From Thioalkalivibrio sp. XN8 (GTDB lineage Bacteria; Pseudomonadota; Gammaproteobacteria; Steroidobacterales; XN24), in assembly GCF_011058255.1 (NCBI RefSeq), contig NZ_JAALFH010000008.1:1-64000 (forward strand): 64,000 bases of DNA. Reading direction: 5' to 3'. The first letter of the stretch is position 1; each line of letters starts with the position of its first letter. The notes beneath the pieces were generated by a model. It ran no database searches. It had not been told where the DNA came from and worked only from the letters and a program-made list of their open reading frames with translations. A program made the translations under genes and the position numbers. Positions 15,536-28,527 of the stretch are shown one piece after another.

Positions 15536-15697
15536 ATGCTGACGACCAAGATCGAGGCCGCGTTCGTTTACGCGGCCATCGCCCACGCGGGCCAGTGCCG
15601 CAAGGGCAGGCGGATTCCCTTCCTCTCCCACCTGATGGCCGTCGCAGGCCAGCGCCGGGTCAAGTGCGTATTGAGTCAAGGTCCGATATTGGGCTAG
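15536..15697 (+). pseudogene. truncated HD-domain phosphohydrolase
   Basis: A 53-codon frame with a good ribosome-binding site (GAGAGGA) starts MLTTKIEAAFVYAAIAHAGQ and continues KGRRIPFLSHLMAVA. This is the opening of RelA/SpoT-like HD phosphohydrolases, which normally run to ~180 residues. After about base 15645 the resemblance and the high G+C both end, and the frame stops 50 bases later. The break marks the left edge of the low-GC island. Confidence 0.72.
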
Positions 15698-15706
15698 AAA
15701 GCCCAA
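15689..15706. other. hairpin at island left edge
   Basis: TTGGGCT-AGAA-AGCCCAA is a perfect 7-bp stem directly after the junction, overlapping the stop codon of the HD fragment. It has no T-run on either strand. It may be part of the end of the inserted element. Confidence 0.4.
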
Positions 15707-15739
15707 AAAGCGCCGGGATCCAGAGGCTATGGATGCGTA

Positions 15740-16660
15740 ATGGACAATAGCGACGACCGAATACGAAGGGCCGCGTTTGATCATGTCCGCCGCCTTGCCG
15801 AGCTCAAGCAGCATTTATCCGCCGCTGATCTCAAGCCTGGCTTTATCTTCGACGGTGAGCGGATTCCGCTGGTTAATCCGCAGCGTGGCATCTTCAAGCC
15901 CAAACAGATGCAGTACCTCCTGTCGATCAAGACCGTATTCCCGAGGCCAGGGAACCGCGTTTGGTACGACGACCAGCGCGAGGTCCACAGGCAGATATAC
16001 GAAGGCGACGAGTTGGTCGATTACGCCTTCATGGGGACGAATCCAGACGCTGCTGACAATCGTTGGCTGCGGGAAGCCTACGAATGGCAAATTCCGATCA
16101 TCTACTTCCTCGGCGTCGCGCCCGGTCTCTACGAGGCTATCTTTCCGGTGTTCGTGATGGGATGGGACGCCAACACATTAAAGGCACGGATTGGTTTTGG
16201 TGTTTCGGATAACGACGTCTGGACGCCACCGGAGAACACCGCAGAGCGTCGATATGCGCTGCGGGAAGTGAAGCAACGCCTACATCAAGCTTCATTTAGA
16301 GAGGCTGTGATCACGGCCTACAAGGGTCGCTGTGCCTTGTCCGGACTGCCCGAGTCCAGGCTACTGGATGCCGCTCACATCATTGCGGATAAGCACGAGC
16401 ATCTTGGCCAGCCAGTCGTGCCAAACGGGATCCCGCTTTCGAAACTCCACCATGCAGCTTTTGATGCACAATTGATCGGTATCGATCCGGACTTCGCGGT
16501 ACACATATCAGAGAGGCTGCTCTCGCAAAGCGATGGACCGATCTTAGAGGCGTTGAAGCAACTAAGTGGGTCTCAGTTGCGGTTGCCCTCTAGAAAGGCC
16601 GATTGGCCAGATCAAGAGCGGTTGGCTCTAAGATTTGCGCGCTTTTTAGGTGCGGCATGA
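15740..16660 (+). CDS. HNH restriction endonuclease with SRA-like N-terminal domain
   Basis: This 306-residue predicted nuclease has an N-terminal half (GFIFDGERIPLVNPQRGIF, residues ~34-52; KPKQMQYLLSIKTVFP; DYAFMGTNPDA; YFLGVAPGLYEAIFPVFVMG) matching the SRA-like reader fold found in ScoMcrA/SRA-HNH proteins. The C-terminal half is an HNH_2 nuclease (RCALSGLPESRLLDAAHIIA, VPNGIPLSKLHHAAFDAQLI). Such proteins are thought to be modification-dependent (type IV-like) restriction enzymes. It is the first gene of the island and stands alone, without a methylase. Confidence 0.82.
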   Translation: MDNSDDRIRRAAFDHVRRLAELKQHLSAADLKPGFIFDGERIPLVNPQRGIFKPKQMQYLLSIKTVFPRPGNRVWYDDQREVHRQIYEGDELVDYAFMGTNPDAADNRWLREAYEWQIPIIYFLGVAPGLYEAIFPVFVMGWDANTLKARIGFGVSDNDVWTPPENTAERRYALREVKQRLHQASFREAVITAYKGRCALSGLPESRLLDAAHIIADKHEHLGQPVVPNGIPLSKLHHAAFDAQLIGIDPDFAVHISERLLSQSDGPILEALKQLSGSQLRLPSRKADWPDQERLALRFARFLGAA

Positions 16661-16706
16661 TTCGCTTATCTAGCCAAACTCGGTCATTAGGGATTGGGGT
16701 ACCACA

Positions 16707-16820
16707 ATGCTCTTTATTCGATCGACTGTAGTCGGGCTTGCGATTCTCCAGTTCCTTCGGGCGGTAGTCTGGATACCCCCGGGAGGTGTCTGGAAGCAGT
16801 GGAACGAGGTACGGACATGA
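16707..16820 (+). CDS. small hydrophobic peptide overlapping the TIR gene
   Basis: The 37-codon ORF begins MLFIRSTVVGLAILQFLRAV and continues VWIPPGGVW. The hydrophobic N-terminal half could form one membrane helix, and the tail is amphipathic. GGGGT lies 7 bases before the ATG, and its stop overlaps the TIR ATG as ATGA, a sign of translational coupling. No family is recognised. It may be a small membrane partner of the TIR protein, a leader peptide, or a fortuitous frame. Confidence 0.4.
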   Translation: MLFIRSTVVGLAILQFLRAVVWIPPGGVWKQWNEVRT

Positions 16821-17908
16821 CCGAGTTCGCGCTTCCCTCTAAGCTCATTCCGGCCTTCCGGCGCTTACGGCAACATTACCAGCGCCGCGCCGAATCCGAG
16901 CTTTGTGCGCTGATAGAGGCGAGTAGCATCTTCGCCAAAACTGGTACTGACTATGACCCATGGGATGGTGGCACGTACGGTCATGACGTTTATATTTTCC
17001 TTCCCGAGGAGATGCTTGGTCTCCTTGATTTGGATGAGCAAGCAGCGATGCAAGATCGCATTCAAGAAGATCTAAGAAAGGCCACCCCAGAGGTCGAAAA
17101 CGAATATGTCAGGGCCGTGTATATCAATGCCCGATACGAATCAGACCCTAACGTTCAGCAGTCGACGCCCTTTTCAATCGAGCCGATAGCTCGCCCTCAG
17201 GACGTCGGGTTGTGGAAGGCCAACGCTCTACGACTGTTCATAAGCCACCGAGATGAGGATAAGTTGGCTGCACGATCGCTAGCTAATGCTCTAGAGGCAT
17301 ATGGCGTCTCCGCCTTTGTTGCGCACGACGCAATCAAGCCCATGAAGGAGTGGCAGAAAGAGATACTCAATGGCCTGGCTACGATGGAAGTAATGTTGGT
17401 CCTTCTGAGCGATCGCTTTCACGAAAGCGTATGGACCAACCAAGAGGTTGGGTTCGCGCTCGGTCGCGGCATTCCGATCATTTGCCTGAAAATCGGAAAC
17501 CTAAACCCAAAAGGGTTTCTCAGTGCCCATCAAGCAATGAAACGGAAACCCGAAGAGCTCGAATTGGCTGCATCGGACATCCTAAAGTCACTATTAGGGG
17601 AGGTTAGGCAAGCTGGGCGGGTCAAGGAGGTGCTAATCGAAGCCTTTATCAGCTCTGGTAGCTACCATGATGCGATTGCCAACTTGAAGCGGCTAACCGA
17701 GACCACAGATAAGCTGACAGAGAGCGATTTCGACCTTATCGCGAAAGGGTATGCAGAAAACGATCAGTTACATACCTGTGTAGGTATACACAACCGTCGT
17801 AACTGGTTTAAGAGATACCTAGAGAGTGCAACTGGTAAAGAACTTGAATTCAATGGAAAGCAGATTCTGGAGTCGTCTAGAGGGTTCGACGATGATATTC
17901 CGCTCTAG
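16817..17908 (+). CDS. TIR-domain defence effector
   Basis: This 363-residue soluble protein has a ~130-residue N-terminal domain of unknown type, a TIR domain at residues ~137-262, and a helical C-terminal tail. TIR landmarks are LFISHRDEDK (139-149), AFVAHDAIKPMKEWQKEI, and WTNQEVGFALGRGIPII, with Glu210 in the position of the NAD-cleaving glutamate. The start at 16817 has GAGGT six bases upstream. Bacterial TIR proteins usually cleave or rearrange NAD after phage sensing, and the island context supports a defence role. The sensor is not evident unless it is the N-terminal domain. Confidence 0.85.
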   Translation: MTEFALPSKLIPAFRRLRQHYQRRAESELCALIEASSIFAKTGTDYDPWDGGTYGHDVYIFLPEEMLGLLDLDEQAAMQDRIQEDLRKATPEVENEYVRAVYINARYESDPNVQQSTPFSIEPIARPQDVGLWKANALRLFISHRDEDKLAARSLANALEAYGVSAFVAHDAIKPMKEWQKEILNGLATMEVMLVLLSDRFHESVWTNQEVGFALGRGIPIICLKIGNLNPKGFLSAHQAMKRKPEELELAASDILKSLLGEVRQAGRVKEVLIEAFISSGSYHDAIANLKRLTETTDKLTESDFDLIAKGYAENDQLHTCVGIHNRRNWFKRYLESATGKELEFNGKQILESSRGFDDDIPL

Positions 17909-18088
17909 AAGAGCCGATATAGGTTTGTTGGGGATATCGGCCGCTTTCGCTGACCAGGTATTGCTCAGGACGCTGAATCTAATCGTCGCTTTTCTCTTCG
18001 AGCGTTCTTCGTGGTCGATTTACCGGCCGTTCAAATCCGCCCAGTGTGCTGGTGTCGCGCGTCAATGAATGTGCCGTAACCACTGATC
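17909..18088. other. intergenic stretch, nothing recognised
   Basis: The 180 bases between the TIR gene and the hsdR fossil are mid-GC. I see no convincing gene, repeat or terminator here. The only open frame continues from the TIR gene's alternative frame without family resemblance. Confidence 0.5.
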
Positions 18089-18238
18089 ATGACCCCGGAA
18101 CAAGAAGCCAGAGTTGAGGTTGACCGGCTACCCCAGCTCGCCGGCTGGTCCGCATTGAATGCTTCGGACGCGAACATTCACGCGTCGCGCGGCGTGGCGA
18201 TCCGCGAATGCCCCGTCATGCGCGATGTCAAAGGCTAG
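18089..18238 (+). pseudogene. hsdR fossil (N-terminus of a different type I restriction subunit)
   Basis: A 49-codon frame begins MTPEQEARVEVDRLPQLAGW and continues ASRGVAIRE(C)P before a stop. This resembles the start of EcoKI-group or DEAD-box HsdR proteins (TPEQxAR.xID...AGW...GRGVAxRE). It is not related to the complete hsdR at 22311, which is of the EcoR124 type. Everything downstream of the nuclease motif is missing, so it looks like the stub of an older type I system replaced by the present one. Confidence 0.6.
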
Positions 18239-18372
18239 GCCCCAGCACCCGCATCATCAGCCGTGCGAAACTGAGAAATTAGTAAAGAATGCACAATTCA
18301 AGCAGGGCTGTTGAAGGCTCTGACCCCTATGTTCCAATGACAGGTTAGAAGTGTTTAAACGGGATTTATGTG
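18239..18372 (+). promoter_or_regulatory. upstream region of hsd operon
   Basis: These 134 relatively AT-rich bases precede hsdM and must contain its promoter. No clear -35/-10 pair or operator could be chosen by eye. The ribosome-binding site before hsdM (GGGAT) is weak. Confidence 0.4.
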
Positions 18373-19938
18373 ATGACAAGCACCCAACAACGCGCCGCCC
18401 TGCAACGCCAGATCTGGCAAATCGCCAACGATGTCCGCGGCGCGGTTGATGGATGGGATTTCAAGCAATACGTCCTCGGCGCGCTGTTTTACCGTTTCAT
18501 CAGCGAGAACTTCATTGACTACATCACCGGGGGCGATGAGTCTGTGGATTACGCCGCAATGGATGATGACGACAAAAACATTGCGGCCGCAAAAGAAGAT
18601 GCCATCAGGACCAAGGGCTACTTCATCTACCCCAGCCAGTTGTTTTTCAACGTGGCCGCCAGTGCCAACACCAACGAGAGCCTGAACACTGATCTGGCCG
18701 CTATCTTTACCGCCATTGAAGCGTCTGCCAGCGGCTACCCTTCGGAACAAGACATCAAAGGCCTGTTTGCTGACTTCGATACCACCAGCAGTCGGCTCGG
18801 CAACACGGTCAAAGACAAGAACGCACGCTTAGCCGCTGTTCTCAAAGGCGTGGCGGGGCTGGACTTTGGCAGCTTCGATGCCAGCCACATCGACCTGTTT
18901 GGTGACACCTACGAGTTTCTCATCTCCAACTACGCCGCCAACGCTGGTAAATCGGGCGGTGAGTTTTTCACCCCGCCGCACGTGTCGCGCCTGATCGCGC
19001 AGCTCGCCATGCACAAGCAGACCAGCGTCAACAAGATCTACGACCCGGCCTGTGGCTCAGGCTCGCTGCTGCTGCAAGCCAAAAAGCAGTTTGACGCGCA
19101 CACCATCGAAGAGGGCTTCTTCGGGCAGGAAATCAACCACACCACCTACAATCTGGCGCGGATGAACATGTTCTTGCACAACATCAACTACGACAAGTTC
19201 AACATCCAGCTCGGCAACACCCTGATCGAACCGCAATTTGGCGACGACAAACCCTTCGACGCCATCGTCTCCAATCCGCCGTACTCGGTAAAGTGGGTCG
19301 GCAGCGACGACCCCACGCTGATCAATGACGACCGCTTTGCTCCGGCCGGTGTGCTCGCCCCCAAATCCAAGGCAGACTTTGCCTTTGTGCTGCACGCGCT
19401 CAGCTACCTTTCAGCGAAAGGCCGCGCCGCCATCGTCTGCTTCCCCGGCATCTTCTACCGGGGCGGGGCGGAGCAGAAGATTCGCCAGTACCTGGTGGAC
19501 AACAATTATGTCGAAACGGTGATTTCTCTTGCGCCAAACCTGTTCTTCGGTACCACCATCGCCGTGAACATTTTGGTGCTGTCGAAACACAAGACCGACA
19601 CCAACATCCAATTCATTGACGCCAGCGGTCCGGACTACTTCAAGAAGGAAACCAATAACAACGTGCTGCTGGACACGCACATCGAACAGATCCTGAAGGT
19701 GTTCGACAGCAAAGCGAACGTGGATCACTTCGCCCAGTCCGTGCCGTTAGAGAAAGTGGCCGGCAACGACTACAACCTGTCCGTCAGTAGCTATGTCGAA
19801 GCCAAGGACAACCGCGAAGTGGTGGATATTGCCCAGCTCAATGCCGAGCTGAAATCCACAGTCGCCAAGATCGACAAGCTACGTAAAGACATTGACGCCA
19901 TCGTGGGCGAGATCGAAGGGGAGGAGCAGGAGGCGTGA
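18373..19938 (+). CDS. hsdM: type I restriction-modification methyltransferase subunit HsdM
   Basis: This 521-residue N6-adenine methyltransferase subunit has an HsdM_N helical domain (residues ~8-150). SAM-binding motif I is [10 protein letters not shown] (224-233), and the catalytic NPPY is at 301-304. The C-terminal coiled region ([20 protein letters not shown]) contacts HsdS. Length and sequence fit the type IC (EcoR124/EcoprrI) group. ATG at 18373 or the adjoining GTG at 18370 could be the start. The stop overlaps hsdS. Confidence 0.95.
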
Positions 19939-21071
19939 GCAGCCTGAACTTTATGGACAAATTGCTAGATGGAGTCGCGGTAGAGTGGAAGGTGCTGGGG
20001 ACTGTTATTAAATTAGAAAAAGGCAGGCAGAGAAATAAGGATTTACTATCTGAGAATGGACTTTATCCTGCATATAACGGGGGCATTTCTCATTCCGGAT
20101 TCACCGACACTTACAACTTCACTGAAAACAAAACCATAGTGAGCCAAGGTGGAGCATCAGCGGGCTATGTCAATTTCGTTACTTCAAAATTCTACGCTAA
20201 TGCGCACTGTTATGTCGTGCTGCCGAACGCTGAAGTGGTTGAAAATAGATATGTTTATCATTTGTTGAAGCTGAATCAGGAAAAGCTAACTAACAAACAG
20301 CACGGCGCTGGTATACCAGCATTGCGAACTAGTGAAATTTTGGACATCCCTATCGCCATCCCATGTCCAGGTAACCCTTCAAAATCACGAGAAATCCAGG
20401 CCGAAATCGTCCGCATTCTGGACACCTTCACCGAACTGACCGCCGAACTGACCGCCGAACTGACCGCCCGCAAGAAGCAATACAACCACTACCGCGACCA
20501 GTTGTTGAGTTTTGAAGGGGGCCGCGTGGAGTGGAAGACTCTGGGCGAGCTCGCCGAGAATCTTGATTCCAAGCGTAAGCCAATTACGAGCAATCAACGG
20601 GATCCGGGCGACATTCCATACTATGGCGCCTCAGGAATCGTAGATTATGTCAAGGACTATCTCTTTGACGGAGACTTCTTGCTGGTCTCCGAAGATGGAG
20701 CCAATTTGTTAGCGCGAAATACGCCAATCGCTTTCAGCATCAGCGGGAAAAGCTGGGTGAACAATCATGCTCATGTACTGAGATTCGAGACATATGATGA
20801 GCGAAAGTACGTTGAATATTATTTAAACAGCATTGACCTAACTCCCTACATTTCGGGCGCAGCACAGCCAAAGCTGAACAAAAAGAATCTGGAGAGTATT
20901 CGCATCCCGGACCCCTCAACCGACGAGAAGAAGCGAATTGTTGGCATCTTGGATAAGTTCGACACTCTGACCAACTCCATCACCGAAGGTCTGCCCCGCG
21001 AAATCGAACTGCGCCAGAAGCAATACACCTATTACCGCGATCTGCTATTGAGCTTCCCAAAGCCGGAATAG
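19935..21071 (+). CDS. hsdS: type I specificity subunit HsdS
   Basis: This 378-residue DNA-recognition subunit has two target-recognition domains (residues ~10-155 and ~195-335), each followed by a conserved helical segment ([16 protein letters not shown] and [16 protein letters not shown]). The central linker has three tandem copies of Glu-Leu-Thr-Ala (167-178). In EcoR124-type enzymes the number of such repeats fixes the length of the spacer between the two half-sites. The GTG start overlaps the hsdM stop and has a strong GGAGGAGCAGGAG site. The two TRDs are more AT-rich than the linker, as is usual for exchanged TRDs. Confidence 0.94.
20433..20468 (+). repeat. triple 12-bp tandem repeat in hsdS linker
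   Basis: Three exact copies of gaactgaccgcc (20433-20444, 20445-20456, 20457-20468) encode ELTA x3 in the central linker of HsdS. Identical 12-mers in tandem are prone to slippage, and gain or loss of a copy keeps the frame. Confidence 0.92.
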
Positions 21072-21084
21072 ACCGGGGCCTAAG

Positions 21085-22308
21085 ATGAGCACGACGCTGA
21101 CCGATATCGCCCAGCAGTTAAAAGATGCCAACAAGAAGGTGCAGCTGATCTATGCCTTCAACGGCATGGGTAAAACACGTCTGTCGCGGGCGTTCAAGCA
21201 GCTCATTGCACCGAGGGGTGATCGCGATTACCCCGACGATGAGGTTGACGTTCCGGAGCTGTCGCGCAACAAGATTCTCTACTACAACGCCTTCACAGAA
21301 GACTTATTCTATTGGGACAACGACTTGGCACGGGATGCCGAGCCCAGGCTGAGAATTCAGCCGAACACGTTCACGGATTGGGTGCTGATAGAACAAGGTC
21401 AGGACCAGAACATCATCTCAACGTTTCAGCGCTACACCAACGACAAGCTCACGCCGCGCTTCAATGAAGAGCGACCGGAAACGGATCAGGACGGCAAAGA
21501 GATCGTGATAAAGGCCTTTTCGGAAGTCACCTTCTCGATGGAGCGCGGTGACGACACGCGCATGGGAAACCTGAAGATCTCCAAGGGTGAAGAGAGCAAC
21601 TTCGTCTGGAGCATTTTCTACACTTTGCTTGATCAAGTCATTGGCGTGCTCAATGTGCCGGAGCCCGGTGAACGAGAAACCAACGTGTTCGATCAGTTGG
21701 GATACGTGTTCATTGACGACCCGGTGAGTTCGCTGGACGAGAACCATCTGATTCAGCTGGCCGTCGACCTGGCGCAGTTGATCAAATCTAGCCAGTCTGA
21801 AGTCAAGTTCATCATCACCACGCACAATCCGCTTTTTTACAATGTGGTGCACAACGAGTTGAACAGCGACGATGGCAGCTACAAAAAGAAGAGCTTCGAA
21901 AAGTACCGGCTGACGATGCATGGGGATGGCACCTGTCAGCTGATTCCCCAGCCCAATGATTCGCCGTTCTCGTATCACCTCTACCTGAAGGCAGAGCTGG
22001 AAAAGGCCATTGCAAGCGGCCAGGTCAGCAAATACCACTTCAACTTCTTGCGGAACATTCTGGAGAAAACCTCTACGTTCCTTGGCTACAAAAAGTGGGG
22101 TGATTTGTTGCCGAGGACCGACCATGGCCGAACCAATCCGTACGAGGCCAGAATCATCAACATCTCCAGCCATTCAAAGCACGCAGGTGAAGAGGTGGTC
22201 GAGCTCACAGAAGACGACAAGCGGGTGTTGGGTTACTTGGTGAAAGAGTTCAATAAGACCTACCACTTTCAGCAGAATGAAAGCTCGGACAAGGCGAACA
22301 AGAAATAA
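21085..22308 (+). CDS. prrC: PrrC anticodon nuclease
   Basis: This 407-residue protein closely follows E. coli PrrC as I know it: an ABC-type ATPase head and a C-terminal tRNA-cleaving domain. Seen are [20 protein letters not shown] (Walker A, 19-38), [19 protein letters not shown] (63-81), signature KISKGEES (164-171), Walker [16 protein letters not shown] (207-221) and the switch His in [11 protein letters not shown] (H247). The nuclease triad is R323 and E327 (RNILEKT) with H363 (ISSHS). It sits between hsdS and hsdR exactly as in the EcoprrI locus, where the type I enzyme keeps PrrC silent until phage interferes. The known reaction is tRNA-Lys anticodon-loop cleavage. Confidence 0.93.
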
Positions 22309-22310
22309 GC

Positions 22311-25300
22311 ATGCACGACTACAAGACCATTGCCGAGTCCAGAAATTTCATCGTTCTGGACAAGTACAGCAAGGAATGGCAAGTCCATGAGAACTACCAG
22401 AGCGAAGGCGATCTGGAGCGCGAGTTCATTCAGGATCTGGTGAATCAGGGCTATGAGGCTCCGCAGGGGCTGAACACGCCTGAAGCCATGCTGGTCAATG
22501 TGCGTGAGCAGCTGCAAACACTGAATGACGTGGCGTTTGAAGATGGCGAGTGGCTGCGTTTTGTCGAGACCTGGCTGGACAAGCCCAGCGATGGCATCGT
22601 CGAGAAGACCCGCAAGATTCACGATGACTACGTTCATGACTTTGTCTTTGACGATGGGCATATCCAGAATATTTATCTAATGGATAAGAGGAACATCGCC
22701 CGTAACAAAGTGCAGGTGATCAAGCAGTTCGAGCAGACCGGCAGTCACGCGAATCGGTACGACGTCACAATCCTGGTCAATGGTTTGCCGCTGGTGCAGG
22801 TGGAATTGAAGAAGCGCGGCGTGGCGATTCGCGAGGCCTTCAATCAGGTGCACCGCTACAGCAAGGAGAGCTTCAACAGCGAGCACTCTCTGTTCAAGTA
22901 TTTGCAGCTGTTCGTGGTCTCCAACGGCACCGACAGCCGTTATTTTGCGAATACCACGCAGCGCAACAAGAACAGCTTCGACTTCACCATGAATTGGGCG
23001 AAGGCCGACAACAGCCTGATCAAGGATCTGAAGGATTTCACAGCCACCTTCTTCCAAAAGCACACGCTACTTAATGTGCTTCTACACTATTCGGTGTTTG
23101 ACAGCAGTAACACATTGCTGATCATGCGCCCGTATCAGATCGCCGCGACCGAACGCATTCTTTGGAAGATCAACAGCGCGTATCAGGCGAAGAATTGGAG
23201 CAACACCGAAAGCGGTGGGTTCGTCTGGCACACCACAGGCTCGGGCAAGACCCTCACCAGCTTCAAGGCGGCACGCCTAGCCACCGAGCTAGATTTTATC
23301 GAAAAGGTGTTCTTCGTGGTGGACCGCAAGGATCTGGATTACCAGACCATGAAGGAATACCAGCGCTTCTCACCGGACAGTGTGAATGGGTCGGACAGCA
23401 CCGCGGGGCTGAAGCGTAACCTGGACAAGGATGACAACAAGATCATCGTCACGACCATCCAGAAGCTGAACAACCTGATGAAGAGCGAGAGCGACTTGCC
23501 GGTCTACGGACAGCAAGTGGTGGTCATTTTTGACGAGTGCCACCGCAGCCAGTTCGGTGAAGCGCAGAAGAACCTGAAGAAGAAGTTCAAGAAGTTCTAC
23601 CAGTTCGGCTTTACCGGCACGCCGATTTTCCCTGAGAACGCTCTCGGCGCTGACACCACCGCCAGCGTGTTCGGCCGTGAGCTGCATTCGTACGTGATCA
23701 CCGATGCCATTCGCGATGAGAAGGTGCTGAAGTTCAAGGTCGACTACAACGATGTGCGCCCGCAGTTCAAGGCCATCGAAACTGAGCAGGATGAGAAAAA
23801 GCTAAGCGCGGCGGAGAATAAGCAAGCCTTGCTGCACCCTGACCGCATCCGCGAGATCACGCAATACATTCTGAACAACTTCCGGCAGAAAACCCACCGC
23901 CTGCAGGCAGGCAACAAGGGCTTCAACGCCATGTTCGCGGTCAGCAGCGTGGATGCCGCCAAGCTGTATTACGAGTCCTTCAAGACGCTACAGAAGGGTA
24001 GCGACAAGTCTTTACGGGTGGCGACCATTTTCTCGTTTGCCGCTAACGAGGAGCAGGACGCGGTCGGCGACATTCAGGACGAGAGCTTTGATGTCTCTGC
24101 CATGAACAGCAGCGCCAAGGAGTTTCTGAGCGCGGCGATTGCGGACTACAACGCGCTATTCAAGACCAACTTCAGCGTGGACAGCAACGGCTTCCAAAAC
24201 TATTACCGTGATCTGGCCAAGCAGGTGAAAGCCAAGGAGATCGACCTGCTGATCGTGGTGGGCATGTTCCTAACCGGCTTTGATGCGCCCAGGCTGAATA
24301 CGTTGTTCGTGGACAAGAACCTGCGATACCACGGGCTGATTCAGGCGTATTCGCGAACCAACCGTATTTTTGACGCCACCAAGACCTTCGGCAATATCGT
24401 CACCTTTCGCGACCTGGAGCAGGCGACCATCGCCGCCATCACCTTGTTCGGCGACAAGAACACCAAAAACGTTGTGCTGGAGAAGAGCTACAAGGAATAC
24501 ATGGAAGGCTTCACCGATGTGGCCACTGGTGAGGCACGACGTGGTTTCGTGGACGTTGTGAAGGAGCTTGAGCAGCGCTTTCCTGACCCCGCTGCCATTG
24601 AAAAGGAAGCGGACAAGAACGCCTTCGCCAAGCTGTTTGGTGAGTATTTGCGCGTTGAGAACGTGCTGCAGAATTACGACGAGTTTGCCAGCCTCAAGGC
24701 TTTGCAAGATCTCGACACGAACGATGCGACGGCGGTTGAGGCCTTCAAGGCCAAGCACTACCTGGACGATGACGCATTGGCCGCCTTGAAAGATATTCAC
24801 ATTCCCTCTGAGCGGAAGATTCAGGACTACCGCTCAACCTACAACGACGTTCGCGACTGGTTGCGTCGGCAGAAGGATTCTGCCGACAAAGATAAATCGA
24901 CAATCGACTGGGATGACGTTGTCTTTGAGGTAGACCTGCTCACGTCCCAGGAAATCAACCTTGACTATATTCTGGAGCTGATTTTCGAGCACAACAAGAA
25001 GACAAAGAGCAAAGCAGAGCTAGTGGACGAAGTACGCCGGGTGATTCGCGCAAGCCTGGGCAACCGGGCCAAGGAAAGCCTGGTCGTTGATTTCATCAAT
25101 CAGACGGATTTGGACGAGATCGGCGACAAGGCCAGCGTGATCGAAGCCTTCTTTATCTTTGCACAAGCAGTACAACAGCGTGAAGCGCAAGAATTGATCG
25201 ACGCCGAAAACCTGAATGCCGAGGCGGCTAGACACTATATCGCCAGCTCACTCAAGCGCGAGTATGCCAGTGACAGTGGTACAGAACTCAACGCTGCCTT

Positions 25301-25409
25301 GCCAAAGATGAGCCCGCTTAACCCGCAATACCTGACCAAAAAGCAGACGGTGTTCCAGAAAATCGCCGCGTTCGTCGAGAAGTTTAAGGGCGTGGGCGGA
25401 CATGTCTAA
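22311..25409 (+). CDS. hsdR: type I restriction subunit HsdR (EcoR124 type)
   Basis: This 1032-residue motor-nuclease subunit has a PD-(D/E)XK nuclease with D151 ([10 protein letters not shown]) and E165-x-K167 (VQVELKKRG), the same numbering as reported for EcoR124I. The helicase domains start with HTTGSGKT (307-314), DECH (408-411) and FGFTGTPIF, followed by a long C-terminal helical domain. Its full length matches EcoR124I HsdR. It starts two bases after prrC, so the four genes hsdM-hsdS-prrC-hsdR form one operon. No inactivating change was found. Confidence 0.95.
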
Positions 25410-25650
25410 TCTAAGTAATCCAGGTTTAGACCCGGCCAAGCTGCGCCGCCTGCTGGTGGACCTGATCGACAAGCCTTTGGACTTGATGGAGCACTACGTG
25501 CCGGTTGCATGGATTAAGACGGTGCCGCTGGAGTAGGCCATCAAGGAGAAAGGCTTCTTCGGTAACCAGAACAGTGTCGCTAAGCCGAAGGCAATGAAGT
25601 GGGTGCATAACATGGAGCGCCTTAAGAGTCGCTTCGGGATTAAGGACTAG
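25402..25650 (+). pseudogene. small ORF interrupted by an in-frame TAG
   Basis: An ATG overlapping the end of hsdR by 8 bases opens [20 protein letters not shown] and VAWIKTVPLE. TAG at 25534-25536 then interrupts the frame, which continues without further stops for 37 codons (AIKEKGFFGNQNSVAKPKAM, KWVHNMERLKSRFGIKD) to TAG at 25648. The downstream half has protein-like composition and conserved-looking residues, so one substitution in a Lys, Glu or Gln codon probably broke an ~82-residue gene. I do not recognise the family. Confidence 0.5.
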
Positions 25651-25664
25651 GTTAGGAGCCCCGT

Positions 25665-26456
25665 ATGACGGAAGCTCCGGCCGCCAAAATTTCTCGGTTG
25701 CTCATCCAGCGTGGCCGCAAGCTGTTTCGCGGGCCTTCTCAGAATCTAGAATCCACCGGCAACGCCAACGCCGATCGCATGGTGAACGACCTGGATCGGC
25801 AGCCTCATGCGTTCGTCATCGCTTGCATCATGAGCCGCCAGATGCGAGCGGAGCGCTGCTGGATTATCCCTTACGAGTTCAAGCATCGAGTTGGGACGTT
25901 CGATATGAAACGGCTGCGCCGTCTCAGCGATGCCGAGGTCCTCGACGCGTTCTCCAGGCCAACACCGCTGCACCGATACAACGCGGAGATGGCACGGAAC
26001 TTCCAGTTCGCTATTCAACTGATTGCTGCCAAATATCGAGGCGATGCATCGCGCATCTGGGCCAATGAGCCCTCTAGCGCCGAGCTCGTCTATCGCTTTC
26101 TTGAATTCCGCGGGGTCGGGCCGAAGATCGCCACCATGGCAGCGAACATCCTAGCCAGACAATTCAAGGTGCCGCTTCGGGATTACTACTCCATAGACGT
26201 GTCCGCGGATGTCCACGTGAAACGCGTTTTCGAGCGATTGGGCTTGGTTGGGCCCAATGCTGATGTGAATCAGGTAATTTTCCGGGCGCGGAGTCTAAGC
26301 CCCGAATTCCCGGGATTGCTGGACTTCCCAGCGTGGGAGATCGGGCGGCACTGGTGCAGGCCGAGACGCTCGGATTGCGCAAGCTGTTATATGCGGAAGG
26401 TTTGTCCTACGGCGGCTTCCGGGTCATTGGACACGGGCGTGGTTCGAATGGATTAG
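25665..26456 (+). CDS. endonuclease III-like DNA glycosylase with Fe-S cluster
   Basis: This 263-residue HhH-GPD-superfamily protein has a helix-hairpin-helix (FRGVGPKIATMAANI, residues 148-162) that places Lys154 at the catalytic lysine of endonuclease III, and Asp182 in SIDVSADVHVKRV at the catalytic aspartate. C231, C238, C241 and C247 give the C-x6-C-x2-C-x5-C pattern of the [4Fe-4S] loop. It is more divergent than housekeeping Nth and sits within the defence island, so it may act on modified or phage DNA; that is inference. It starts 14 bases after the interrupted ORF. Confidence 0.8.
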   Translation: MTEAPAAKISRLLIQRGRKLFRGPSQNLESTGNANADRMVNDLDRQPHAFVIACIMSRQMRAERCWIIPYEFKHRVGTFDMKRLRRLSDAEVLDAFSRPTPLHRYNAEMARNFQFAIQLIAAKYRGDASRIWANEPSSAELVYRFLEFRGVGPKIATMAANILARQFKVPLRDYYSIDVSADVHVKRVFERLGLVGPNADVNQVIFRARSLSPEFPGLLDFPAWEIGRHWCRPRRSDCASCYMRKVCPTAASGSLDTGVVRMD

Positions 26457-26489
26457 CGGCCTTCACGGACTCGAAAGGGATTGTCAGAA

Positions 26490-27278
26490 ATGCGTTCACC
26501 GCTCAAAAGAAAGCCTCTCCGCAATCCCGGTGACTCGGTCCGTAAGGAGATGGACAAGCTCGTCAACGAGAAAGTCCTTTCCGACTACTTCATTGCCATG
26601 TTCATGGTTCTGCTCGCCGGCTTGGAGTGGTTTCGCTGGTATACGGACATGCGGCCCCAACCGGTGATCTACACCGTTGTAGCGATCATCGTGGCTGGCG
26701 TTGCCTTCAATCGTATCCGCAGAAACTTCAAGAGATTCAGAGCATTGAAGTTAGGCCAAGAAGGCGAAGCCGCCGTTGGGCAGTTTCTTGAATCGCTACG
26801 GAATCGTGGCGCTTCCGTCCTCCATGACTTCCCTGGCGAGGGCTTCAATGTAGACCACATCGTGATCCACGAGAGCGGCGTCTACCTGATCGAAACCAAG
26901 ACCTTCTCGAAACCAGATCGTGGCGAACCCTTGATTACTTTCGATGGCGAGCGCGTGCTGGTGCTCGGCAGGGAGCCTGATCGGAATCCGGTTATCCAGG
27001 CGCGAGCCTCCGCGAGGTGGCTAAGCGAGTTGATTCAGGAGCTTACCGGGAAGAGGGTTGCCGTTCGGCCTGTCGTCGTTTTCCCAGGGTAGTTCATTCA
27101 GCCGACTGCGGAGGCCAAGTCGAGTGACGTGTGGGCCCTGAACCCAAAGGCATTGCCGGCGTTTATCGATAGCAGTCGAAGCCAGATGGCCGACGCGGAC
27201 GTGCACTCGCTCGCGGCGCATCTTTCTCGCTACGCGCGCGCCGAGCTTGGCCGTAGCGGAAAGCGCGGTGGTCACTAG
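26490..27278 (+). pseudogene. NERD-domain nuclease-like gene interrupted by TAG
   Basis: The frame encodes two membrane segments (residues ~33-75, ending RIRRNFKRFRALKLGQEGE) and a NERD nuclease-related domain (FLESLRNRGASVLHDFPGEG, VDHIVIHESGVYLIETKTFS). TAG at 27090-27092 interrupts at VVVFPG*FIQPTAEAK, where relatives normally have Trp. The frame continues with DVWALNPKALPAFIDSSRSQ and HLSRYARAEL to TAG at 27276. A single TGG-to-TAG change explains it. The conserved D..ETK core lies before the stop, so a truncated product is conceivable. The ATG at 26490 is preferred, with AAAGGGA nine bases upstream. Confidence 0.78.
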
Positions 27279-27406
27279 TCTCGCCGCCTGAACCGTGGAA
27301 AAGTTACTCGGTCCCGAAAGCTCCATTTGAAGCGGGCGGACGGTTATATTTTTCGATAGTCTGAGCAGGCCCTGCCCGCCTGCCAGGATCGCGGAGTGAC
27401 GAGAAT

Positions 27407-28414
27407 ATGCGCGAAATAAGCTACATGCTGTTGGTTAGTTCGATTGTATCGGGACACGCTATTGCTCAGGTCCCGGACCTTTCAGGACTGGACTTGGACA
27501 CCCGTACGTCGATCCAACTGGCGTGTGCTCGTGCAAAGGTAGAGGGGCCGACTGTATATCGCGACTGCATCGTCAATCAACTAGAGAGTATCGAGGGCAT
27601 GGATCCTTTGCCTGACGTCTCTGGGCTTGATCTGGATACCCGTACGTCTATTGAACTGGCTTGTGCCCGTGCGAAGACGGAGGGCCCAGCTACATATCGC
27701 GCCTGTGTCGGTCGCGAGTTGGAGAGCATTGAGGGTATGGACACTTCGCCTGATCTCTCCGGGCTCGATTTGGACACGCGTGGGTCGATTGAACTCGCTT
27801 GTGCTCGCGCCAAGGTAGAGGGGCCGGCGGCGTATCGCCAATGCGTGCGCCGCCACTTCGAAAGCGTCTCCGAAACGGAAGACACTTCGGGGCTATCGGA
27901 GCTTGAGCCGACTTTGCCCGGGGCAGAGGAAGGAGTTTCGGCCAACGGCTCATGGGAATTGAGTACGGAGGGCACTGGGACAGCATTCGAGAGCCGCTGG
28001 GCGACGACCTCTGCACTCCCCGATGAATCGAGCGCCGAATCAGAGCTTGCCTTCGTGGGCATCAACGCCTACGAGGGGAGTCCTGAGCTATTCATCGGCG
28101 ATCCGTACTCCACTGCGGAAGTCTTGCTGTCTGCGATGGTGGGAGAAGAGATTGAGTGTGCCTTCGGAAACTGGGGGCTTGCGGTCGATCGAGAGGAATT
28201 TCCAATTGCCGATACGTCAAGATCTACGGATAACTCGGCGACGTTTCTGCACCCGCGGGATGAGAGGGGATTCTGGCGTGCTTTCGCTGGTGGGTCGCGA
28301 TTGGCCGTTCAGGTGGAAAGGACCTGCTACGGTGACATGGATGTAATCACGATGGTTTACTCGCTTTCGGGATCTCAAGCTGCAGTCCAGTTCGTTTTGA
28401 ATCGAGAGCCGTAG
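27407..28414 (+). CDS. secreted protein with three 46-residue cysteine repeats
   Basis: This 335-residue protein has a signal peptide ending SGHAIA-Q. Residues 23-160 are three tandem repeats of 46 residues, each of the form PDLSGLDLDTRTSI-x-LACARAK-x-EGP-x-x-YR-x-C, with two cysteines per unit that probably pair. The C-terminal half (residues ~190-335) is an unrecognised, probably beta-rich domain ending SGSQAAVQFVLNREP. Composition is intermediate between island and backbone. The function is unknown; the repeat type is reminiscent of short Cys modules in exported bacterial proteins. Confidence 0.72.
   Translation: MREISYMLLVSSIVSGHAIAQVPDLSGLDLDTRTSIQLACARAKVEGPTVYRDCIVNQLESIEGMDPLPDVSGLDLDTRTSIELACARAKTEGPATYRACVGRELESIEGMDTSPDLSGLDLDTRGSIELACARAKVEGPAAYRQCVRRHFESVSETEDTSGLSELEPTLPGAEEGVSANGSWELSTEGTGTAFESRWATTSALPDESSAESELAFVGINAYEGSPELFIGDPYSTAEVLLSAMVGEEIECAFGNWGLAVDREEFPIADTSRSTDNSATFLHPRDERGFWRAFAGGSRLAVQVERTCYGDMDVITMVYSLSGSQAAVQFVLNREP
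27473..27886 (+). repeat. three tandem 138-bp coding repeats
   Basis: Units 27473-27610, 27611-27748 and 27749-27886 encode 46 residues each. Units 1 and 2 are nearly identical in protein sequence over their first 24 residues, and unit 3 is diverged at its end. Confidence 0.85.
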
Positions 28415-28527
28415 GAGTAGTTCATAGCACTGGACTACCCCCACAGCACACCAACTGCTAGTTTCCCCCGAAGCCCGATCCCCATGCTGGGCCTTGAACC
28501 GCAACACGCCGACCGGAGGAATGCAGC
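28415..28527. other. intergenic, possible island right edge
   Basis: Composition rises back to the backbone level across these 113 bases. The start of the next gene has a good GGAGGAATGCAGC ribosome-binding region. No attachment-site duplicate of the left edge was found. Confidence 0.4.

Follow-up and report, generated by a model that had tools for sequence, protein, structure and literature searches.

PrrC is the well-known 'guardian' of restriction, and most of the work on it that we consulted concerns the E. coli protein of the EcoprrI locus (prrABCD). The residue numbers of E. coli PrrC (D222, D287, R320, E324 and H356) are published, D287 is reported to contact the modified wobble base, and the recognition stretch is described as shared by part of the PrrC family and no more, with a note that substrates may vary (PMC3014915). 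PrrC has been placed in the HEPN nuclease superfamily (PMC3710099). In K. quasipneumoniae, PrrC170, which shares 35% identity with EcoPrrC, has been shown to cleave tRNA-Lys and to restrict phages T1 and T7 (PMC11555353). RloC joins an ABC-ATPase to an Arg-X3-Glu...His triad (PMC2610378); it contains an extended coiled coil bearing a CXXC zinc hook, and its linkage to restriction genes is rare. In type IC restriction enzymes, gap length changes through a repeat in the HsdS spacer, and in type I enzymes HsdS target-recognition domains are exchanged as specificity modules recombined into a conserved chassis (PMC3874165).

We analysed a PrrC locus of Thioalkalivibrio sp. XN8 that lies in a 64,000-nucleotide stretch of contig NZ_JAALFH010000008.1 (positions 1 to 64,000; hereafter the window). 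The locus has the same gene order, protein size, ATPase motifs and catalytic triad as E. coli EcoprrI/PrrC, from which it differs in the form of its recognition segment and in insertions and deletions in the ATPase half. With PrrC170 it shares the PrrC family and a type I restriction partner, whereas the PrrC170 operon is reported to run R-S-PrrC-M (PMC11555353) and that of the window hsdM-hsdS-prrC-hsdR; a K. quasipneumoniae plasmid protein used as a proxy for PrrC170 is about 33% identical to the window protein. Unlike RloC, the window PrrC is a restriction-linked protein of 407 residues, and it lacks the zinc-hook (CXXC) coiled-coil insert. That PrrC serves bacteria as a back-up defence was already known; what our sequence comparisons suggest as new is that its nuclease half behaves as an exchangeable cassette.

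A PrrC gene within a type IC restriction operon

Four closely spaced open frames on the forward strand make up the operon: hsdM (18370–19938, 522 aa), hsdS (19935–21071, 378 aa), prrC (21085–22308, 407 aa) and hsdR (22311–25409, 1032 aa), with a 4-nt overlap between hsdM and hsdS, a 13-nt gap between hsdS and prrC, and a 2-nt gap between prrC and hsdR. The partner genes retain recognisable motifs. HsdM, the DNA methyltransferase subunit, matched TIGR00497 (646.6 bits), N6_Mtase and HsdM_N and carries DPACGSG at 225 and NPPY at 302; the specificity subunit HsdS matched Methylase_S; and HsdR, the restriction/translocase subunit, matched TIGR00348 (690.4 bits), ends in an EcoR124_C domain (E 1e-71), and has HTTGSGKT at 307, DECH at 408 and D151..E165-L-K167. 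A 12-nt tandem repeat in hsdS (20436–20467) encodes part of the central spacer. It resembles the type IC spacer repeat and looks as would be expected of a type IC spacer able to change length. The EcoR124-type HsdR C terminus, the TIGR00497 match of HsdM and the HsdS spacer repeat are all features of type IC, and prrC is linked to this operon, bearing out the original prediction of an hsdM-hsdS-prrC-hsdR order like that of EcoprrI; all four genes are intact.

The 407-codon prrC frame has no internal stop, and its product matched the PADLOC PrrC model PDLC02360 over residues 3–405 (E 1.1e-149, 496.6 bits), the single match to that model in the whole host genome. AAA_13 was the sole Pfam family above its cut-off, and NCBIfam gave no match at E 0.001. 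The protein is predicted to consist of an ABC-ATPase head reaching to about residue 294 and a helical nuclease domain from about residue 295. We aligned it with PrrC proteins from 107 other loci on viral contigs and plasmids, in one relative and in GTDB genomes (108 rows, including a few near-copies). The signature SKGEE, the Walker B/D-loop DDPVSSLD and the switch residue H247 were all conserved. The Walker A motif of the window protein, AFNGMGKT, lacks the usual first glycine, a position occupied by alanine in 105 of the 108 rows; this is a family-wide trait, and we rejected the idea that the motif is degenerate. R323, E327 and H363 (codons within 22051–22173) were invariant (108/108) and aligned with R320, E324 and H356 of a 396-aa E. 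coli plasmid PrrC (locus L024, 53% identical to the window protein), in which D222, D287 and the three triad residues all stand at their published positions. The predicted retention of the ATPase motifs and of the nuclease triad in an intact PrrC was thus upheld, and the C-terminal half did not belong to a different ABC-ATPase family. Residues 71–81 form a near-invariant block, which we guess to be the 15-residue N-terminal 'PrrC box'. The protein contains one cysteine and therefore no CXXC zinc hook.

An AlphaFold2 model of medium confidence (pLDDT 72.2, pTM 0.67) gave an ABC head resembling those of Rad50 and SMC proteins (Foldseek; Z up to 12.1 over 239 residues). The C-terminal part is helical in the model, and the fold search barely covered the nuclease half; neither phmmer nor a profile search returned a solved PrrC structure, and none was named among the fold matches listed. 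Judged from its sequence, the window gene is a functional-looking PrrC.

By analogy with E. coli EcoprrI/PrrC, the type IC enzyme HsdMSR would provide the first defence and would keep PrrC latent. A phage that inhibits or perturbs HsdMSR on DNA would unmask PrrC, whose NTP-driven ATPase head would release a metal-independent HEPN-type nuclease domain, and the freed nuclease would cut a tRNA in its anticodon loop, stopping translation. The latency, trigger and cleavage ascribed here to the window protein are modelled on the E. coli system. We consider this reading very probable, together with exchange of the nuclease half within the family, of which the window carries the form called class B below; its substrate may be a tRNA with a Lys-like anticodon loop.

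Probable separate histories of the chassis and the nuclease half

The E. coli tRNA-recognition peptide (residues 284–294, KYGDSNKSFSY) is absent from the window protein, in which the aligned codons 289–297 (21949–21975) encode QPNDSPFSY, two residues shorter and sharing D292, S293 and the FSY end. We call the shorter, 'NDSPFSYH'-like form class B; it was found in 77 of the 108 rows, the window among them, in a sample biased towards this class. The 'GDSNKSFSYH'-like form, class A, was found in 26 rows, and in the remaining rows the segment was of intermediate length (four) or of neither form (one). Class was assigned by segment length, which placed locus L062 in class A; it was later relabelled 'other' because its C-domain groups with class B, leaving 25 class A rows. 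E. coli PrrC is counted as class A on the basis of L024, which agrees with the published protein in length and residue numbering.

Class A and class B loci differed in the nuclease half and hardly elsewhere. Across 79 loci (15 of class A; L062 not counted as A, and the long-branched L012 and L020 left out), Fst between the classes was 0.027 for PrrC 1–200 (PrrC-N; permutation maximum 0.030), 0.027 for HsdM (maximum 0.051) and 0.035 for HsdR, just over its permutation maximum of 0.034, and 0.385 for PrrC 301–400 (PrrC-C, which excludes the recognition segment; maximum 0.059). In a profile along the operon, Fst stayed at or below 0.10 throughout HsdM, PrrC 1–200 and HsdR, climbed from about PrrC residue 211, reached 0.28–0.56 over residues 271–400 and fell again at HsdR residue 1. 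Clustering of the 108 rows at 45% identity put 105 N-halves into one cluster and divided the C-halves between two clusters, one of 80 and one of 25, leaving three rows ungrouped. Identity between the C-domains of the two classes was 32–60% (median 41%, L062 counted as A), and the nuclease half was the most divergent of seven segments, with a mean divergence of 0.47 against 0.14–0.31.

Trees of the separate parts disagreed in the same way. On trees of 81 loci (L062 not counted as A), the fewest class changes required were 11 for PrrC-N, 14 for HsdM and 10 for HsdR, and one for PrrC-C; with 93 rows and L062 labelled A, the HsdR tree needed 16 changes and the PrrC tree two. With the same labelling, approximately unbiased (AU) tests rejected class A as a single clade on HsdR (93 rows; log-likelihood 956 lower, p 6e-74) and on PrrC 1–200 (82 rows; 200 lower, p 8e-6). 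We left out of the trees two near-copies (L009 of L008, and L019 of L018), the divergent L023, L029 and L030, and rows with a 3-residue gap, as well as loci with insufficient HsdM or HsdR from trees needing them. Support was weak for many branches (40 of 79 left open on the 200-column PrrC-N tree, 37 of 77 on the 100-column PrrC-C tree).

Pairwise distances agreed with the trees. Over 82 loci, HsdM and HsdR distances were well correlated (r 0.81), and those of PrrC less so with either HsdM (0.56) or HsdR (0.52), because the ATPase half follows HsdM (0.64 over 80 loci) and the nuclease half does so much less (0.28). PrrC-N and PrrC-C differed by at least 0.25 in 556 of 3,321 pairs, whereas HsdM and HsdR did so in none. 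Among 18 class A loci (L062 included), the nearest neighbour was also of class A in 7 cases for HsdM, 9 for PrrC-N, 9 for HsdR and 17 for PrrC-C; for the 64 class B loci the same-class counts were 53, 56, 53 and 64, respectively.

Since the GTDB loci analysed were the 80 of 458 most similar to the window protein, a choice that under-samples class A, we repeated the comparison on the viral-contig loci, for which every relative found had been returned. Of these 20 loci, 16 were usable, 10 of them class A (L062 again not counted as A, and L017 dropped for insufficient HsdM or HsdR). This unranked sample agreed with the ranked one, with Fst of 0.003 for PrrC-N, −0.029 for HsdR and 0.285 for PrrC-C, the last matched by none of 500 shuffles. 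The chassis trees nevertheless keep some class signal. With L062 labelled A, the PrrC-N tree needed 11 changes, against 16.5 for shuffled labels (none of 500 as low), the HsdR tree 11 (0 of 500) and the HsdM tree 14 (about 20 of 500), so that exchange of the nuclease half appears frequent but not free.

Individual operons display the same discordance. A strict mosaic rule singled out 10 of 82 loci, and one of these, L102, was mapped on DNA: up to about codon 200 of prrC it resembles class A locus L011 (0.77–0.93), from about codon 200 to about 380 it resembles class B locus L049 (0.80–0.95), and in hsdR its similarity turns back towards L011, the switch lying near Walker B and the return at the prrC/hsdR junction. 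The window operon is itself discordant between HsdR and the nuclease half. Its HsdR is nearest to those of L050 and L005 (0.91), whose nuclease halves are at 0.57, and its nuclease half is nearest to that of Photorhabdus (L041, 0.86), in which HsdR is at 0.82 and the ATPase half at 0.71. The segment of the window that corresponds to the cassette (21685–22308) starts near Walker B, at about codon 201, and ends with the stop codon of prrC; its edges are approximate and taken from relatives through the Fst profile, the half-gene trees and the L102 mosaic.

Together, these comparisons well support the view that the nuclease half is an exchangeable cassette in PrrC-bearing type IC operons. A chassis made up of HsdM, HsdR and, for the most part, the ATPase half of PrrC would have one history and the nuclease half another. 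Recombination would swap the nuclease half, with breakpoints near Walker B and near the start of hsdR, and this half would exist in at least two discrete types, the window carrying class B and E. coli PrrC class A. The ATPase half thus seems to belong with the Hsd chassis and the nuclease half to be the replaceable part; a division of labour in which the head senses and the tail kills would fit this pattern. Exchange of HsdS target-recognition domains offers a parallel, except that the module exchanged in PrrC is an effector that cuts RNA and is encoded by the adjacent gene. In the PrrC literature that we searched, in which older papers are incompletely covered and an earlier report is possible, we found no description of exchange of the nuclease half (PMC2610378, PMC3014915, PMC3710099, PMC3874165, PMC9296519, PMC10264068, PMC11555353 and PMC12707154).

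Two observations concern the hsdR end of the cassette. In four pairs of close operons, DNA similarity falls across roughly the first 300 nt of hsdR (22311–22610 in the window), as it does over the end of prrC, and this dip does not follow PrrC class. Coupling of the HsdR N terminus to PrrC, by joint exchange or through a contact site, was considered and rejected (partial Mantel r 0.05 and 0.02, p 0.19 and 0.34; class Fst there ≤0.10).

Candidate tRNA targets and alternative readings

The original prediction had named tRNA-Lys as the target, and this can no longer be treated as settled: the window carries the class B segment and not the KYGDSNKSFSY of E. coli. As its segment is not of the E. 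coli form, and the recognition stretch is reported to be conserved in part of the PrrC family, in which substrates may vary (PMC3014915), naming tRNA-Lys as the target of the window protein is a guess. The aspartate corresponding to the wobble-contacting D287 of E. coli is retained (D292), and the likeliest substrate would therefore be a tRNA with a Lys-like anticodon loop.

What the exchange means for targeting can be read in two main ways. The window gene may be an ordinary PrrC whose target is tRNA-Lys, just as in E. coli, with a neutral difference in the segment and with classes that are old lineages of one enzyme sharing one target, a reading to which we give not quite an even chance. Conservation of the wobble-contact aspartate in 107 of the 108 rows speaks for it, as does the reported cleavage of tRNA-Lys by PrrC170 at 35% identity to EcoPrrC (PMC11555353), and our K. 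quasipneumoniae plasmid proxy, 32% identical to E. coli PrrC, has a short segment, PEEGDTPFFHH. Old lineages would, however, give both halves of the protein the same history, and the two halves differ; this discordance argues against the lineage part of the reading and not against a shared tRNA target.

Alternatively, class B proteins, that of the window included, may act on a tRNA other than tRNA-Lys, or may cut tRNA-Lys at a different site or in a different modification state, so that each cassette exchange would re-aim the effector, a possibility that we regard as somewhat doubtful. Replacement of E. coli peptide 284–294 by a form two residues shorter would fit it, as would the reported variation of the recognition sequence and possibly of substrates among PrrC proteins (PMC3014915), and the frequent exchange of exactly the nuclease half suggests selection on that half. 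Against it stand the conserved aspartate and the reported cleavage of tRNA-Lys by both PrrC170 and E. coli PrrC despite their low identity (PMC11555353). The stronger form of our proposal, in which the tRNA-cutting half is exchanged in the manner of HsdS DNA-recognition domains and the exchanged types differ in the tRNA that they cut (or in its modified or phage-altered form), is accordingly advanced as tentative.

Two further readings fared worse. A degenerate or silent prrC, kept through its linkage to hsdR, is quite unlikely given the full-length frame, the invariant catalytic residues and the tight operon spacing. Unequal rates in place of recombination, with the nuclease half evolving fast in an arms race and the chassis genes slowly, might account for the high divergence of the nuclease half, but such rates cannot yield nuclease halves that are 93–98% identical beside ATPase halves at 67% (L102 compared with L049 and L050), together with 87% ATPase and 42% nuclease identity in the same gene (L102 compared with L011) and a DNA profile that switches and then turns back at hsdR, and we consider this explanation very unlikely.

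If the nuclease half is indeed a plug-in cassette, PrrC diversity could be understood as an arms race over which tRNAs are targeted, in which phage tRNAs and tRNA-repair enzymes would be the expected counter-moves. Should the exchanged types also differ in target, the operon would be a chassis with two independently re-aimable parts, one directing the DNA cut and the other the tRNA cut made when restriction fails. Exchanging natural halves within one chassis would be a simple means of finding out what determines the choice of tRNA, and the window prrC is a clean representative of class B, the form common in our class B-biased sample.

Occurrence and genomic setting

PrrC is sporadic in the host's order and widespread globally. 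Searched with the window protein, the GTDB species genomes yielded 479 stretches, of which 458 encode a relative, and the named loci (the best 80 of these 458 together with those from other sources) come from Pseudomonadota, Bacillota, Thermodesulfobacteriota, Bacteroidota, Chloroflexota and further phyla. Relatives were present in 113 of 72,556 plasmid records. We scanned IMG/VR and found 20 PrrC loci on contigs that this collection labels viral; a second scan with E. coli PrrC gave 20 loci, every one on a contig of the first scan. A phage origin of PrrC was considered and discarded, as none of 50,697 phage records gave a match. In a search for near copies, the L024 gene was found at 99% identity or more in 6 of 5,426 E. 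coli genomes. Within the host's order, 5 of 147 genomes matched the PrrC model, two of them over most of its length (the host and a divergent copy in G052), and HsdR matches at E 1e-60 or better occurred in 3 of 147, namely the host itself and two others with 37 and 40% identity. The original description of an intact PrrC as uncommon therefore fails as a general statement and holds locally, for the host's order.

Operon structure was largely shared among the 107 other loci. The complete M-S-prrC-R order was found in 91; of the rest, at least L004, L013 and L057 are broken by a contig end. The next gene after prrC was hsdR in 104 of 107 loci, within 100 nt in 89 of these 104 and at a distance of 161–3,933 nt in 15, so the tight prrC/hsdR junction is not universal. 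In L016 (2801–4997) and L102 (3830–5996), hsdM frames of more than 700 aa lie immediately 5' of prrC and no separate hsdS was found; these are possible hsdM-hsdS fusions, or hsdS may be truncated.

The operon was also predicted to sit in high-GC DNA, which is true of the rest of the window and not of the operon itself, a low-GC insert: in 2-kb windows, GC is 0.50–0.58 between 16 and 28 kb and 0.63–0.75 elsewhere. Marker genes lent the predicted gammaproteobacterial host no decisive support: the draft genome gave neither a 16S rRNA match nor a WhiB match (a Corynebacterium control was positive for WhiB), and its GroEL, among the best 15 matches, was nearest to enterobacterial plasmid copies, at 66%. 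In both congeners (G001 and G002), DNA that matches the left flank, which in the window extends to about 15.7 kb, abuts different low-GC DNA. On one contig of G002 the two flanks are about 23 kb apart, separated by about 5 kb of higher-GC DNA and then a low-GC block with a Dpd-type cluster; in G001 the left flank is accompanied by a DNA methyltransferase and by restriction enzymes of types II and IV. The site (15700–28500 in the window; L140, L141 and L142 are its congener counterparts) looks like a variable defence site, with the PrrC operon an apparent acquisition in a low-GC island.

A conserved stretch of about 48 nt marks the left edge of the island (15663–15713), where the window copy contains a perfect hairpin, TTGGGCT AGAA AGCCCAA. 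The stretch recurs in the islands of both congeners (L141, 8428–8475; L142, 11032–11079 and 17249–17297), with two copies in one of them, and an HNH gene begins about 30 nt past it in the window and about 400 nt past one of the copies in G001. The conserved stretch may have a regulatory role, or it may be an insertion element. The window HNH gene (15740–16660), just upstream of the operon, is weakly similar to phosphorothioate-dependent restriction enzymes, below the model cut-off, and is followed by a TIR-domain gene with weak Thoeris-like matches (16694–17908). A 335-aa open reading frame at 27407–28414, which gave no Pfam, NCBIfam or PADLOC match at E 0.001, contains three 100-nt repeats at 138-nt spacing (27473–27848). 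A divergent PrrC lies between hsdS and hsdM on an IncC and an IncA plasmid (L029 and L144), and in L144 TrlF-like and RNA-binding-domain genes are annotated upstream of it.
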